Positions 20,863 through 29,145 of a stretch of 64,000 bases of DNA are shown here, piece by piece (positions within the stretch are counted from its first letter, which is position 1; the number at the start of each line of letters is the position of its first letter). Origin of the DNA: Olivibacter sp. SDN3 (GTDB taxonomy: Bacteria > Bacteroidota > Bacteroidia > Sphingobacteriales > Sphingobacteriaceae); assembly GCF_014334135.1 (NCBI RefSeq), contig NZ_CP060497.1, positions 4,774,001 through 4,838,000 of the forward strand, in the 5' to 3' direction. The notes beneath the pieces were generated by a model. That model did not search any database, was not told the DNA's origin, and worked only from the letters and a program-made list of their open reading frames with translations. The position numbers and the translations under genes are program-made.

Positions 20863-21453
20863 TTAAGGTTTAAATCTATCTATAATTCTCCTACCAGATT
20901 TTACATCAACTCCCTTTAACTCTATATACTTCACATCTGGTGCCCAAAATGTACCGCCATCACCAATCCTTATAAAAATCCTTTCTAAAACAGACTCTTT
21001 GTTACTAATATCTGTATAAATGTGGTACCTACCATTACTATCTTTCTTCAAGGTTAAAGGCAATTTATTGTAAGCGACGGAACGGACGTCGTAGGTCCCG
21101 TCATTATTCTTTTTTGCTGTGATGCCATATGCAAACTTTCGCTGGATAAAATTAAGATCTTTCCTTGCTCCCCCTTCGGGATAACGTATCCAAAAAGCAT
21201 TAATTGGATTTGCAGTGTTTAATTCACCACTCTTATTAAGGTTCAGCGTATAACAAATGGTGTTCGTATTAGGATCTCGTTGTATATAAAAAAGCAAGTT
21301 ATCTACCCCTTTCGGTATTGGAAAAGTGTCTATTTTAGTAGAATCCGATGCGCAAAACACATGGCGATTATCAATGGAGGCTGCACATAAACTATATGTG
21401 CTGGCGATAAAAGCCATCATGATGCTTAGGCGAATCTGTATATTACTTGACAT
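20863..21453 (-). CDS. DUF4833 protein, exported
   Basis: The 196-residue protein has an N-terminal signal-like segment (SIMMAFIASTYSLCAAS). The DUF4833 domain follows: LLFYIQRDPNTNTICYTLN, INAFWIRYPEGGARKDL, QRKFAYGITAK and, at the end, IFIRIGDGGTFWAPDVKYIEL. The family is of unknown function. It is the last gene of the minus-strand run that includes GtrA, the CDP-alcohol transferase and serine palmitoyltransferase, 20 bp after GtrA, so a role in the envelope lipid pathway is possible. Confidence 0.85.
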   Translation of the reverse strand: MSSNIQIRLSIMMAFIASTYSLCAASIDNRHVFCASDSTKIDTFPIPKGVDNLLFYIQRDPNTNTICYTLNLNKSGELNTANPINAFWIRYPEGGARKDLNFIQRKFAYGITAKKNNDGTYDVRSVAYNKLPLTLKKDSNGRYHIYTDISNKESVLERIFIRIGDGGTFWAPDVKYIELKGVDVKSGRRIIDRFKP

Positions 21454-21473
21454 ACCTTAAATAGCTTGTTAAA

Positions 21474-21881
21474 TCATGTTCTTTTAAATACCCAATACTT
21501 TTGCAATGTATAGTTAAAGCCAAGTGAAACCATTAAATCCACCATGACCCTGCTAATACGATAATCAATACGCCCTCCCTCTGTTACTAAGTAAGTACCC
21601 ATAGCTTTCAACAGTATGCTAACACCAACTATTATAGCAAATTTTAGCAACTGAAATCCCATCTTTGTGCTAGCAGCATCTGTCGTTCCTTCAAAAGTCC
21701 AGTTTCTGTTGATGGTAAAGTTTGCTAAAGCTCCAACAATACCTCCCAATAGAATCGACACTGTATAGTGGATCTGCAAGTATTCAGTAGAGCCAATCAT
21801 GATCAGATAGTCAACAATACCTCCTATAAATGCCGATAATTGCGCCTTAATAAAGGTATAAATATTATTTCTCCTGTTCAT
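21474..21881 (-). CDS. GtrA-family membrane protein
   Basis: The 135-residue protein has four hydrophobic segments and GtrA-type features (FIKAQLSAFIGGIVDYLIM at the start, GGIVGALANFTINRNWTF in the middle, and a C-terminal NYTLQKYWVFKR). GtrA proteins are thought to help move lipid-linked sugars across the inner membrane. The start overlaps the 3' end of the CDP-alcohol transferase gene by 17 bases, suggesting translational coupling. Here it may help flip or place a lipid head-group precursor; this is inference. Confidence 0.9.
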   Translation of the reverse strand: MNRRNNIYTFIKAQLSAFIGGIVDYLIMIGSTEYLQIHYTVSILLGGIVGALANFTINRNWTFEGTTDAASTKMGFQLLKFAIIVGVSILLKAMGTYLVTEGGRIDYRISRVMVDLMVSLGFNYTLQKYWVFKRT

Positions 21882-22623
21882 CGGAAAAATTCTTCTTTAC
21901 AACCCGTTCCGCTATATCACGTGCATCGCCTAATCTTAATAACTTTCTTGTGTCAACAATATTTACAACAAATAAAATCATCACCACAAGTCCAGAAAAA
22001 ACACTCACAGTTTTAGGAAAAATCACCTCTATTATAAGAATCACACTTATGATAACCCGTATTTCCGTAGGTCCAACAGTACCTGCGTCTATGGTATATT
22101 TATCCGTTATTTTATAGCGTAACTGAGATATAATCATCGCCCAACCATATAAGGCGACAAAAAAATAGGCAAGCAATTCATACCCATTACCTAGATAAAC
22201 GATAAAACCCAGCCCCATAATAACCGTATTTATCCAATCCATTATAATATCTAACGAGAAGCCGTACCATTTTCTTGGGATATTTCGATAATATGCAATT
22301 CTACCATCTAACGAGTCTCCAAACCAGTTAACAAACAAACCAACAACTCCTAATAATAGATACGTTCGCTCAAAATAACTTGCCAAAATAAAACCCGCTA
22401 GGACTAACAGTCCTCCCAAAAAACCTACTGCTGTAAGCATATCTGGAGTTATCGCTTTAGGCACTATAGTAACTAAGTAAGAGATTGTACGCTGTTCGAC
22501 ACCTTTCAATAAATTCGTGCGCTTCCTATCATTAAATATACCCTGCGTTCCTTTTTTGCCATTAGAAAGCCTTCTATTAGCTGGAATAATAGTATCCTCC
22601 CATAAATTGTTTTCTTTCATCAA
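21865..22623 (-). CDS. CDP-alcohol phosphatidyltransferase-family protein
   Basis: The 252-residue integral membrane enzyme belongs to the family that moves a phosphoalcohol from a CDP-linked donor to an acceptor. The signature DxxDGxxAR(x)8-9GxxxDxxxD is seen as DSLDGRIAYYRN (Asp103, Asp106, Gly107, Ala110) and GFSLDIIMD (Gly121, Asp125, Asp129), with Tyr111 in place of the usual Arg. All four metal-binding aspartates are kept. An extra 50-residue N-terminal segment precedes the first membrane helix. Within this locus it could install the head group of a phosphosphingolipid or of a phospholipid such as phosphatidylinositol phosphate; donor and acceptor are not decided by the sequence. Confidence 0.87.
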   Translation of the reverse strand: MMKENNLWEDTIIPANRRLSNGKKGTQGIFNDRKRTNLLKGVEQRTISYLVTIVPKAITPDMLTAVGFLGGLLVLAGFILASYFERTYLLLGVVGLFVNWFGDSLDGRIAYYRNIPRKWYGFSLDIIMDWINTVIMGLGFIVYLGNGYELLAYFFVALYGWAMIISQLRYKITDKYTIDAGTVGPTEIRVIISVILIIEVIFPKTVSVFSGLVVMILFVVNIVDTRKLLRLGDARDIAERVVKKNFSDEQEK

Positions 22624-22743
22624 TCCTTTAAATTAGCCAATTTAGGCTATGTTGTCAATCAAATATAATTTCTAAAAATAATGGAAATATAATTTTATGA
22701 CAACTCAATAGTTTGTGATATAGAAAAGCAATAATTTAGCCAA

Positions 22744-27394: not shown

Positions 27395-27442
27395 AGATAA
27401 TTTAGTACTATATAATAACGACGATTGTTTTCTGAATTCTAG

Positions 27443-28648
27443 TTACGCGATTTTCACAAACTCACTCGCCAATGTTTTACGATATGCTTTTGTTAATTTG
27501 CTTATAGCCTCATCTATCTGATCAAAAGTATGCGTTGCCATTAATGAAAGACGGATTAACGAATCTTGTGAGGCCACAGCTGGAGAAACAACAGGGTTAA
27601 CGAAAACCCCATCCTCCTGTAAGGTTTTGGTAATCAAAAATGTCGCATCGTTATCTCTTATATAAACAGGCAATATCGGACTCTCCGTTTTTCCTAAATC
27701 AAAACCATTCTCTATTAACAATCGTTTCGCGTAGTCCGTGTTTTTCCATAAGTTTTCGATATGTTCTGGTTCGGACTTGATAATTTCTAATGCAGCAAGT
27801 ACGCTCGCTGCCGCTCCGGGAGTCATACTTGCACTAAACATAAGCGACCTTGCTCTGTGTTTGAGGAATTCTATCGTATTTGCATCACTTGCAATGAAAC
27901 CACCTAAAGAAGCCAGCGATTTACTAAACGTCCCCATGATTAGATCCACATCATCTGTTAAACCGAAATGAGAAGCTGTTCCTGCACCACGGTCACCGAT
28001 CACACCTAGACCATGTGCATCGTCTACCATCACGGCTGCATCAAATTCTTTTGCTATATTAACGAGCTCGGGTAACCTAACAAAATCACCTTCCATACTA
28101 AACACCCCATCAACCGCAATCAGTTTAACGGCATCATTAGGAAGCTGTCCCAACCGCTGCCTGAGGTCATTCATATTATTGTGCTTGTATTTAATTACTT
28201 TGGAAAAAGATAAACGGCTACCATCTATAATGGAAGCATGGTTGCTGTCGTCTAAAACCAAATAATCGTTTCTACCGGTTAAACAGGAAAGCGCTCCTAA
28301 ATTCGCTTGGAAACCTGTGCTGAACAGAACAGCGCCCTCTTTACCGACATAATCTGCCAGTTTTTCTTCGAGCTCCTCGTGAATATCCAAGGTTCCATTT
28401 AGGAATCTCGACCCTGCACAACCAGTGCCATACTTAGCTGTAGCATTTTGAGCAGCTTCAATAATTTTCGGATGGTTGGTAAGGCCTAAATAAGAATTTG
28501 AGCCAAACATTAGAACTTTTTTCCCATTTATGACAACCTCTGTATCTTGACCGGATTCAATAGGTCTAAAATAAGGATAAAGACCTTTCTCTTTTATCAC
28601 CGCCGCATCTTTAAAATCTGCTATACGCTTGTCAAAATTTCTACTCAT
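27443..28648 (-). CDS. spt: Serine palmitoyltransferase
   Basis: Condenses L-serine with palmitoyl-CoA to 3-ketodihydrosphingosine, the first step of sphingolipid synthesis. The 401-residue protein is an alpha-oxoamine synthase: [47 protein letters not shown] with the cofactor-stacking His, and [13 protein letters not shown] with the PLP-binding Lys. The [12 protein letters not shown] start and the overall sequence closely follow what I recall of the Sphingobacterium multivorum enzyme, which separates it from BioF and Kbl relatives. Soluble homodimer expected. It is preceded by a MarR gene (47 bp) and followed by the GNAT-like gene. Confidence 0.93.
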
Positions 28649-28695
28649 CTAAATAAAATTTAAAACCATCAGGTTTATCTACTTTTCTAATACTT

Positions 28696-29145
28696 CTATA
28701 TTATATGTATATTCTGCAAATTATTACCAATAGACTTAATAAGCTGCATAAAACGGTCGTGTTCAGGGCTTTTCAGATTATTGAACAATACCTTTTCTAG
28801 ATTTATTATCTTGTCTTTAATCAGATTTGCTAATATCTTACCTTTAGGTGTAAGCATTACACAGTTTTTTCTCTTATCAGCCACATCTGTAGTAACGCGC
28901 ACTAAGTCTTCTCGCTCCAAATTGGAAATGGTTCTTAACACCGAGGATTTATCCCGACCGATTTCATCTGCTATTTGTTGTTGTGGAAGACCATGTTCCG
29001 GTATACTAAACAAAACAGGCAGCTGTTCTATCCTCACATCGATTCCTTGAGCAGACAAGTATTGATTGGCTTTGTTGCGTAACAACTTACTCAAATTGTC
29101 GAGATGGAATATCGCTAAATCATCATTGTTCTTTACCTGATTCAT
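28696..29145 (-). CDS. MarR-family transcriptional regulator
   Basis: The 149-residue protein has the MarR winged-helix layout: LSKLLRNKANQYL, LPVLFSIPEHGLPQQQIADEIGRDKSSVLRTI recognition region, NLEREDLVRV, and TTDVADKRKNCVMLTPKG as the wing. It starts the minus-strand run leading into serine palmitoyltransferase, with a 47-bp gap, so it probably regulates its own operon. A promoter with an overlapping dyad lies right at its start. The ligand is unknown; lipophilic compounds are usual for the family. Confidence 0.93.
   Translation of the reverse strand: MNQVKNNDDLAIFHLDNLSKLLRNKANQYLSAQGIDVRIEQLPVLFSIPEHGLPQQQIADEIGRDKSSVLRTISNLEREDLVRVTTDVADKRKNCVMLTPKGKILANLIKDKIINLEKVLFNNLKSPEHDRFMQLIKSIGNNLQNIHII

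Follow-up and report, generated by a model that had tools for sequence, protein, structure and literature searches.

Among the closest described systems to the locus analysed here, a row of eight genes in Olivibacter sp. SDN3, are the inositol phosphoceramide operon BT1522-1526 of Bacteroides thetaiotaomicron (PMC8791184, PMC9246714) and the ceramide and phosphosphingolipid region of Caulobacter, which comprises aasR, cerR, acpR, spt, cerS, and LptC2/F2/G2 (PMC11324152). An alternative inositol-lipid cluster with an NTP transferase, a CDP-alcohol phosphatidyltransferase, and HAD genes was proposed in PMC9246714. The initial annotation of the Olivibacter DNA had stated that the steps are spread over the genome in better-studied Bacteroidota, and for gut genera this holds: the published accounts consulted place serine palmitoyltransferase (SPT) at BT_0870, the operon at BT_1522-1526, and a ketosphinganine reductase at BT_0972, and a Parabacteroides spt locus contained neither a GNAT nor a CerR gene within the 19 kb fetched.

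The window, i.e., the whole analysed stretch of 64,000 nucleotides (NZ_CP060497.1, positions 4,774,001 to 4,838,000; the host genome is a single contig of 6.12 Mb), contains eight consecutive open reading frames on the minus strand at 20863-29145. The reading frames and Pfam assignments agree with the extent and the gene families given in the initial annotation. We read the row, with a probability of about 0.7, as a locus for making and exporting sphingolipids, which represents in Olivibacter a ceramide and inositol-lipid locus conserved in Bacteroidota. Like the B. thetaiotaomicron operon, the window pairs a GtrA protein with a CDP-alcohol transferase; unlike in that operon, where MIPS, PgpA, phosphatidylinositol (PI) synthase, and PAP2 stand together, MIPS is located elsewhere and the transferase belongs to a different type. 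Similarly, the window shares with the Caulobacter region an SPT and a GNAT homologous to the acyltransferases of similar clusters, with a CerR homologue in relatives, but acpR, aasR, and LptFG are not among its eight genes and DUF5686, GtrA, and DUF4833 are found instead.

Backbone formation, acylation, and hydroxylation are well supported as predicted functions of the window. The SPT (27443-28648; Aminotran_1_2), the enzyme of the first committed step, scored 732 bits on the NCBIfam model NF047600, above the curated cut-off of 640, and 642 bits against the S. multivorum SPT structure 3A2B. This score and an Spt-type active-site alanine bear out the strong spt call made earlier. The alanine, Ala273, is found 30 positions after the pyridoxal phosphate lysine K243. 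At the corresponding position the cysteate-using SulA has Lys281 and Spt has alanine, which discriminates the two enzymes (PMC9304779); the correspondence was established by the spacing from the pyridoxal phosphate lysine, with SulA itself unaligned. The same motif of 3A2B also carries alanine.

The GNAT-fold N-acyltransferase (26267-27394; Acetyltransf_1, 24.7 bits vs. a cut-off of 20.7) is well supported by homology as a homologue of the bacterial ceramide synthase CerS, and N-acylation is predicted. It aligned over the full length with the acyltransferases of plasmid-borne spt clusters from Klebsiella michiganensis (36% identity) and Roseomonas mucosa (32%), which served as stand-ins for Caulobacter CC_1154 and scored 371 and 320 bits, respectively, on the Bacteroidota GNAT profile. 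Based on these alignments, the possibility that the GNAT is unrelated to the proteobacterial CerS was rejected. No PDB sequence relative of the GNAT was found at E values up to 0.1. The Roseomonas cluster also contains acyl carrier protein, SPT-type, and LptF/LptG genes, and the Klebsiella cluster acyl-AMP ligase, NAD-epimerase, acyl carrier protein, and SPT-type genes; CerR of the Bacteroidota relatives was 28% identical to this epimerase. The Klebsiella plasmid (L163, NZ_CP106839.1:111000-126000) is typed as conjugative, and its gene set resembles five ceramide genes described for Caulobacter (PMC11324152).

The hydroxylase of the Scs7/FA2H type (22744-23382; FA_hydroxylase, 72 bits), a membrane fatty acid or ceramide hydroxylase by family, has 212 residues and a histidine-box membrane domain. 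Residues 18-203 aligned with yeast Scs7 (4ZR1) at an E value of 1.1e-34, and the histidine clusters are common to both proteins. Scs7 has a cytochrome b5 domain, whereas Pfam detected none in the window protein.

Conservation of gene order around spt, the check proposed in the initial annotation, was found in related genera. NF047600 matched in 19 of 61 genomes of the family, including the window genome, and in 37 of 296 genomes of a phylum sample (E 1e-150), with 11 above the cut-off. Loci were fetched from the 18 other family genomes, from six above-cut-off genomes of other families, and from 14 of the 26 below the cut-off. All counts given here were drawn from related genomes, and the p values are not corrected for ancestry. 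A GNAT gene followed directly behind SPT in 17/18, 4/6, and 11/14 of these loci, respectively, and CerR came next on the same strand in 12/18, 4/6, and 0/14. Eight of the 14 below-cut-off loci had a CerR-profile match 2.4-2.6 kb upstream of SPT on the opposite strand. The loci L048-L061, whose SPT-like proteins score under the cut-off, are from another class of the same phylum; in L052-L055 and L058-L061, two glycosyltransferase-type genes lie between the CerR-like epimerase and SPT. The two above-cut-off exceptions (L044 and L045) belong to one family and lack a GNAT beside spt, as does the fetched Bacteroidales locus L164. A 2024 paper states that spt, cerS, and cerR are not close to each other in sphingolipid producers of Bacteroidota (PMC11334938). 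This statement fails for many Bacteroidota, in which spt adjoins cerS and often cerR as well. Furthermore, DUF4833 occurred in 7 of the 11 genomes with an above-cut-off SPT vs. 11 of 285 others (Fisher p 2.5e-7; two scans at the same settings taken as one draw of 296 genomes). One of these seven genomes (G016) has its DUF4833 copy away from spt.

A scan of the genome collection with DUF4833 gave a second view of the neighbourhood. The best 80 of 431 relatives were used; this set leans to close relatives, includes some short contigs, and overlaps with the spt set (L083 = G052; L094 = G245). DUF5686 was found within 10 kb of DUF4833 in 65/80 loci, the hydroxylase within 2 kb in 50/80, and PAP2 within 2.5 kb in 57/80. 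A CDP-alcohol transferase of type A or B was within 3 kb of, or fused to, DUF4833 in 64/80, and six more loci had the alternative transferase. The remaining 10/80 (five Runella or Larkinella loci, L114 of Mucilaginibacter, whose contig begins near DUF4833, and L122, L128, L145, and L147) are an upper bound, since the profile misses the alternative transferase at least in Runella L042, which is the contig of L094. Among the 54 loci with 9.5 kb or more of upstream sequence, 43 contained SPT or GNAT. The full row, with genes overlapping or tightly spaced, reads SPT-GNAT-CerR-MIPS-PgpA-GtrA-DUF5686-CDP-alcohol transferase-DUF4833-hydroxylase-PAP2 and, small losses aside, is present in, e.g., Pontibacter, Rufibacter, Mucilaginibacter, and Chitinophaga. 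The order MIPS-PgpA-GtrA-PI synthase-PAP2/AUR1-like of the B. thetaiotaomicron operon, as published, recurs within it; unlike that operon, the row adds SPT, CerS, CerR, DUF5686, DUF4833, and the hydroxylase. One contig filed under a betaproteobacterial metagenome-assembled genome (L123, Azovibrio) is probably misbinned, as it has the layout and gene lengths of the Bacteroidota locus L129.

Compared to the full row, the window locus lacks CerR, MIPS, PgpA, and PAP2. MIPS of the window genome is found at C1:3852609-3853922, within a complete alternative inositol-lipid module (C1:3852600-3858317; L066:9101-14818), in which it is followed by the NTP transferase, a 299-residue protein, the CDP-alcohol transferase, LPG_synthase_TM, and HAD genes. 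It is the same module as the alternative cluster proposed in PMC9246714, but located approximately 0.94 Mb from spt. The 299-residue protein has no Pfam match; each of the seven other alternative modules compared has a relative, apart from the cut stretch L078. In Runella (L042) and genome G028 (L028), the module genes lie inside the spt row behind DUF5686. DUF5686 and DUF4833 flank the module in two further stretches of Runella and Larkinella (L085, L095) and in that of Parapedobacter (L091); at the edge, these stretches have either CerR alone or GNAT together with CerR. The in-row genes were 45-78% identical to the copies of the window genome. MIPS is inside the row in L028 and L091 but absent from it in the compared Runella and Larkinella stretches. 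In a DUF4833 tree, the window and Olivibacter proteins grouped with Parapedobacter (89/82); Runella and Larkinella were close by, and Flavobacterium was separate. Support in this tree was moderate, with an unsettled bootstrap and three long branches. Queries with PAP2 and PgpA gave no match in the window genome in runs that had no positive control, which fits with the alternative inositol route. The window locus is a rearranged version of the larger conserved ceramide and inositol-lipid locus; in our reading, MIPS and the module left as a block and the pair of type B transferase and GtrA entered. The earlier description as a compact ceramide locus holds for the clustering of the genes, but not for self-sufficiency, given that CerR is missing from the locus and has no close relative in the genome.

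The putative head-group transferase (21865-22623; CDP-OH_P_transf, 26.4 bits vs. a cut-off of 22) is of type B, with 54-72% identity to other type B sequences and 22-26% to type A. CDP-alcohol phosphatidyltransferases share the motif D-x2-DG ... G-x3-D-x3-D, with DG-x2-AR at its start. The four motif aspartates (D100, D103, D122, and D126 in a 249-residue reference) were invariant in 16 aligned sequences; the AR of the motif is not matched in the window transferase, which reads DGRIAYYR. The nearest PDB entries to a profile of types A and B were inositol-phosphate and choline/ethanolamine transferases, which leaves the head group unfixed. Sphingobacterium makes ceramide phosphoethanolamine. 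It also makes ceramide phosphoinositol, as cited in PMC9246714. The transferase gene overlaps by 17 bases with that of the GtrA/DPMS transmembrane protein (21474-21881; GtrA_DPMS_TM, 67 bits), a possible lipid flippase. The B. thetaiotaomicron operon likewise encodes a GtrA-like protein, BT1524 (PMC8791184), and an assignment of BT_1524 as DUF4833 was rejected for this reason. In total membranes, though not in vesicles, loss of BT1524 was reported to decrease inositol phosphoceramide and increase PI (PMC8791184), which fits with GtrA as a flippase. An export role of GtrA in the window, like any identity of the head group, is at the level of suggestion, whereas a head-group transferase as such, like the N-acylation and hydroxylation named in the initial annotation, is supported.

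DUF4833 (20863-21453; Pfam, 172 bits) is a small protein with a signal-like start and is predicted to be a periplasmic partner of the head-group transferase. Fusions of the transferase with DUF4833 (405-457 residues) were found in 14 of the 80 named loci (Chitinophaga, Taibaiella, Sediminibacterium, Hymenobacter, Flavipsychrobacter, and metagenome-assembled genomes) and in 19 of all loci examined, which adds L025, L033, L034, L036, and L071, with Pfam run on one. Hydropathy analysis placed an extra hydrophobic segment between transferase and DUF4833 in 10/10 fusions examined, and at the same threshold 6/7 separate DUF4833 proteins had a signal-like start. If the transferase ends in the cytoplasm after six transmembrane helices, as CDP-alcohol transferases do, an additional segment behind them would place DUF4833 in the periplasm in the fused and separate forms alike. 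No match to PDB sequence profiles was obtained for DUF4833 at E values up to 5. In the literature searched, the names DUF4833 and DUF5686 did not occur, and no description of the fusion or, among the papers listed, of the combined locus was found.

DUF5686 (23465-26041; Pfam DUF5686, 199, and CarbopepD_reg_2) is the proposed outer-membrane partner. It has a CarboxypepD_reg-like domain. Its hydrophobic, signal-like N-terminus, an N-terminal part that matches five SusC/RagA-type receptors in the PDB (the match being confined to this part of DUF5686), and a C-terminal phenylalanine are consistent with a possible outer-membrane placement. In Bacteroides finegoldii and Prevotella nigrescens, DUF5686 adjoins MIPS and the alternative module, with no annotated spt in the fetched 18 kb. 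Across distant groups it is retained with either of two inositol modules. A carboxypeptidase-regulatory-like gene, the BT_1527 homologue, is described as a neighbour of both inositol clusters (PMC9246714); we take it to be DUF5686, matched by description alone. Besides the full-length protein, the window genome encodes one paralogue (26% identity), and the other matches listed hit the N-terminal domain.

The proposed pathway would start with SPT, a shown member of its family, condensing serine and acyl-CoA to 3-ketosphinganine. The GNAT, judged by homology and synteny, would N-acylate this intermediate to 3-ketoceramide, and a reductase, CerR in many relatives, would yield dihydroceramide; the window genome would have to supply this activity from elsewhere, which is a gap in the scheme. 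The Scs7-like enzyme may then introduce a hydroxyl group into the ceramide, with C2 of the acyl chain as the most likely position. Head groups are attached by CDP-alcohol transferases on the cytoplasmic side, where the window transferase, according to its motif, would add a phosphorylated alcohol. GtrA may flip the product, which periplasmic DUF4833, placed close to the transferase by the fusions, might receive or modify, and DUF5686 may help to place it in the outer membrane. DUF4833 and DUF5686 are probably tied to the sphingolipid pathway, at steps after exit from the inner membrane. That DUF4833, GtrA, and DUF5686 constitute a dedicated route of Bacteroidota for phosphosphingolipids and inositol lipids from the inner-membrane transferase through the periplasm to the outer membrane, with DUF4833 as the periplasmic receiver, sometimes fused to the transferase, and in the role that LptC2/F2/G2 probably have in Caulobacter, is a tentative proposal that we regard as doubtful.

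Several observations weigh against the reading as a sphingolipid locus. CerR was absent from the window locus in profile searches and the list of reading frames, so that the set spt-cerS-cerR is incomplete, and the best match in the whole genome (41 bits, 28% identity) has an internal stop. By the hydropathy script, the fused proteins have 5-6 segments instead of seven. A strand-alternation test, for which the hydropathy values of W and Y were set by us, did not show a barrel for DUF5686 (z 1.0 over shuffles; SPT, -1.6; GNAT, -2.2). Loss of BT_1524 caused no change of inositol lipids on thin-layer chromatography in another report (PMC9246714). In addition, the compared loci share ancestry.

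Other points favour a different explanation, in which the head-group half (type B transferase, GtrA, and DUF4833) is a general phospholipid cassette beside ceramide genes and DUF4833 serves glycerolipids. The trio occurs in Flavobacterium with no spt in reach (five named loci, and L068-L070, L072, and L073 of family f4). The type B transferase was present in 5/42 spt-negative family genomes, one copy with an internal stop, and at the genus level the association with spt was weak (5/9 spt genera vs. 2/16 others, p 0.058). In seven named loci, some short, MIPS and DUF4833 occur in a stretch that contains none of SPT, GNAT, and CerR, and plasmids of Hymenobacter and Spirosoma carry PgpA-GtrA-DUF5686-DUF4833-PAP2 with no annotated spt in 17-18 kb. 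The ceramide and inositol-lipid halves are therefore separable, and inositol-lipid loci that lack spt, CerS, and CerR over the stretch can include DUF5686 as well as DUF4833. Solitary DUF4833 copies were found as well (L067, L074, L075, L077, L079, L080, L128, L147, L166, and L081, the second copy of the window genome); L078 and L089, short stretches of Runella rows, were left out. The copy in Parabacteroides distasonis (L166:8859-9380) has another kind of neighbourhood and stands beside RidA and D-TA-type enzyme genes. From the Flavobacterium trio, the plasmid loci, and the solitary copies, we conclude that DUF4833 goes with the CDP-alcohol transferase and not with ceramide as such, which corrects the initial annotation. 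However, by genome the type B transferase was found in 12/19 spt-positive vs. 5/42 spt-negative members of the family (p 8.6e-5). In three of three fetched loci of one genus (g16; L037, L040, and L041), it follows directly after SPT-CerS-CerR with GtrA behind; the one SPT compared from this genus (L022) scored 732 bits against 3A2B. The position of the window DUF4833 in the moderately supported tree, with Parapedobacter, Runella, and Larkinella and not with Flavobacterium, also argues for the sphingolipid reading. We consider the phospholipid explanation possible, at well short of even odds.

A further explanation regards DUF5686 and DUF4833 as passengers, conserved neighbours with a general role in the envelope. 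A conserved neighbourhood by itself is no proof of function, and the solitary DUF4833 copies and the DUF5686 paralogue agree with such a role; the transferase fusions in several genera and the retention of DUF5686 with two inositol modules in distant groups make it unlikely. A sulfonolipid (capnine) locus, with an SPT-like enzyme using cysteate instead of serine as SulA of Bacteroidota does (PMC9304779), was rejected as highly improbable, given the NF047600 score above the cut-off and alanine, as in 3A2B, where SulA has lysine by spacing.

The row is headed by a MarR-family regulator (28696-29145; MarR_2, 31.6 bits), relatives of which were present in 4/38 fetched spt loci, three of them from genus-mates. 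An AraC-type regulator upstream of the locus (29614-30513) is kept in 2/3 fetched genus-mates. The intergenic gaps are, in row order, 47, 48, 225, 82, 120, -17, and 20 bases, and the 225-base gap before DUF5686 leaves space for a second promoter. Consensus scans of the locus for promoters and terminators gave no more matches than shuffled sequences; a single transcript of the eight genes is thus not shown.

The initial annotation had offered the locus as a context for a role of DUF5686 and DUF4833 in placing lipids in the outer membrane. This idea was strengthened, with DUF4833 now linked to the transferase and outer-membrane placement still at the level of suggestion. According to a Caulobacter paper (PMC11087976), no flippase or transporter for sphingolipids had been identified, and for Caulobacter LptC2/F2/G2 and CC_1166 are described as probable transport parts (PMC11324152). 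The adjacency of spt, cerS, and often cerR in many Bacteroidota runs contrary to PMC11334938. The fusions assign DUF4833 a likely place and partner, and the locus gives, with GtrA, DUF4833, and DUF5686, three candidates for the transport of sphingolipids to the outer membrane in Bacteroidota.

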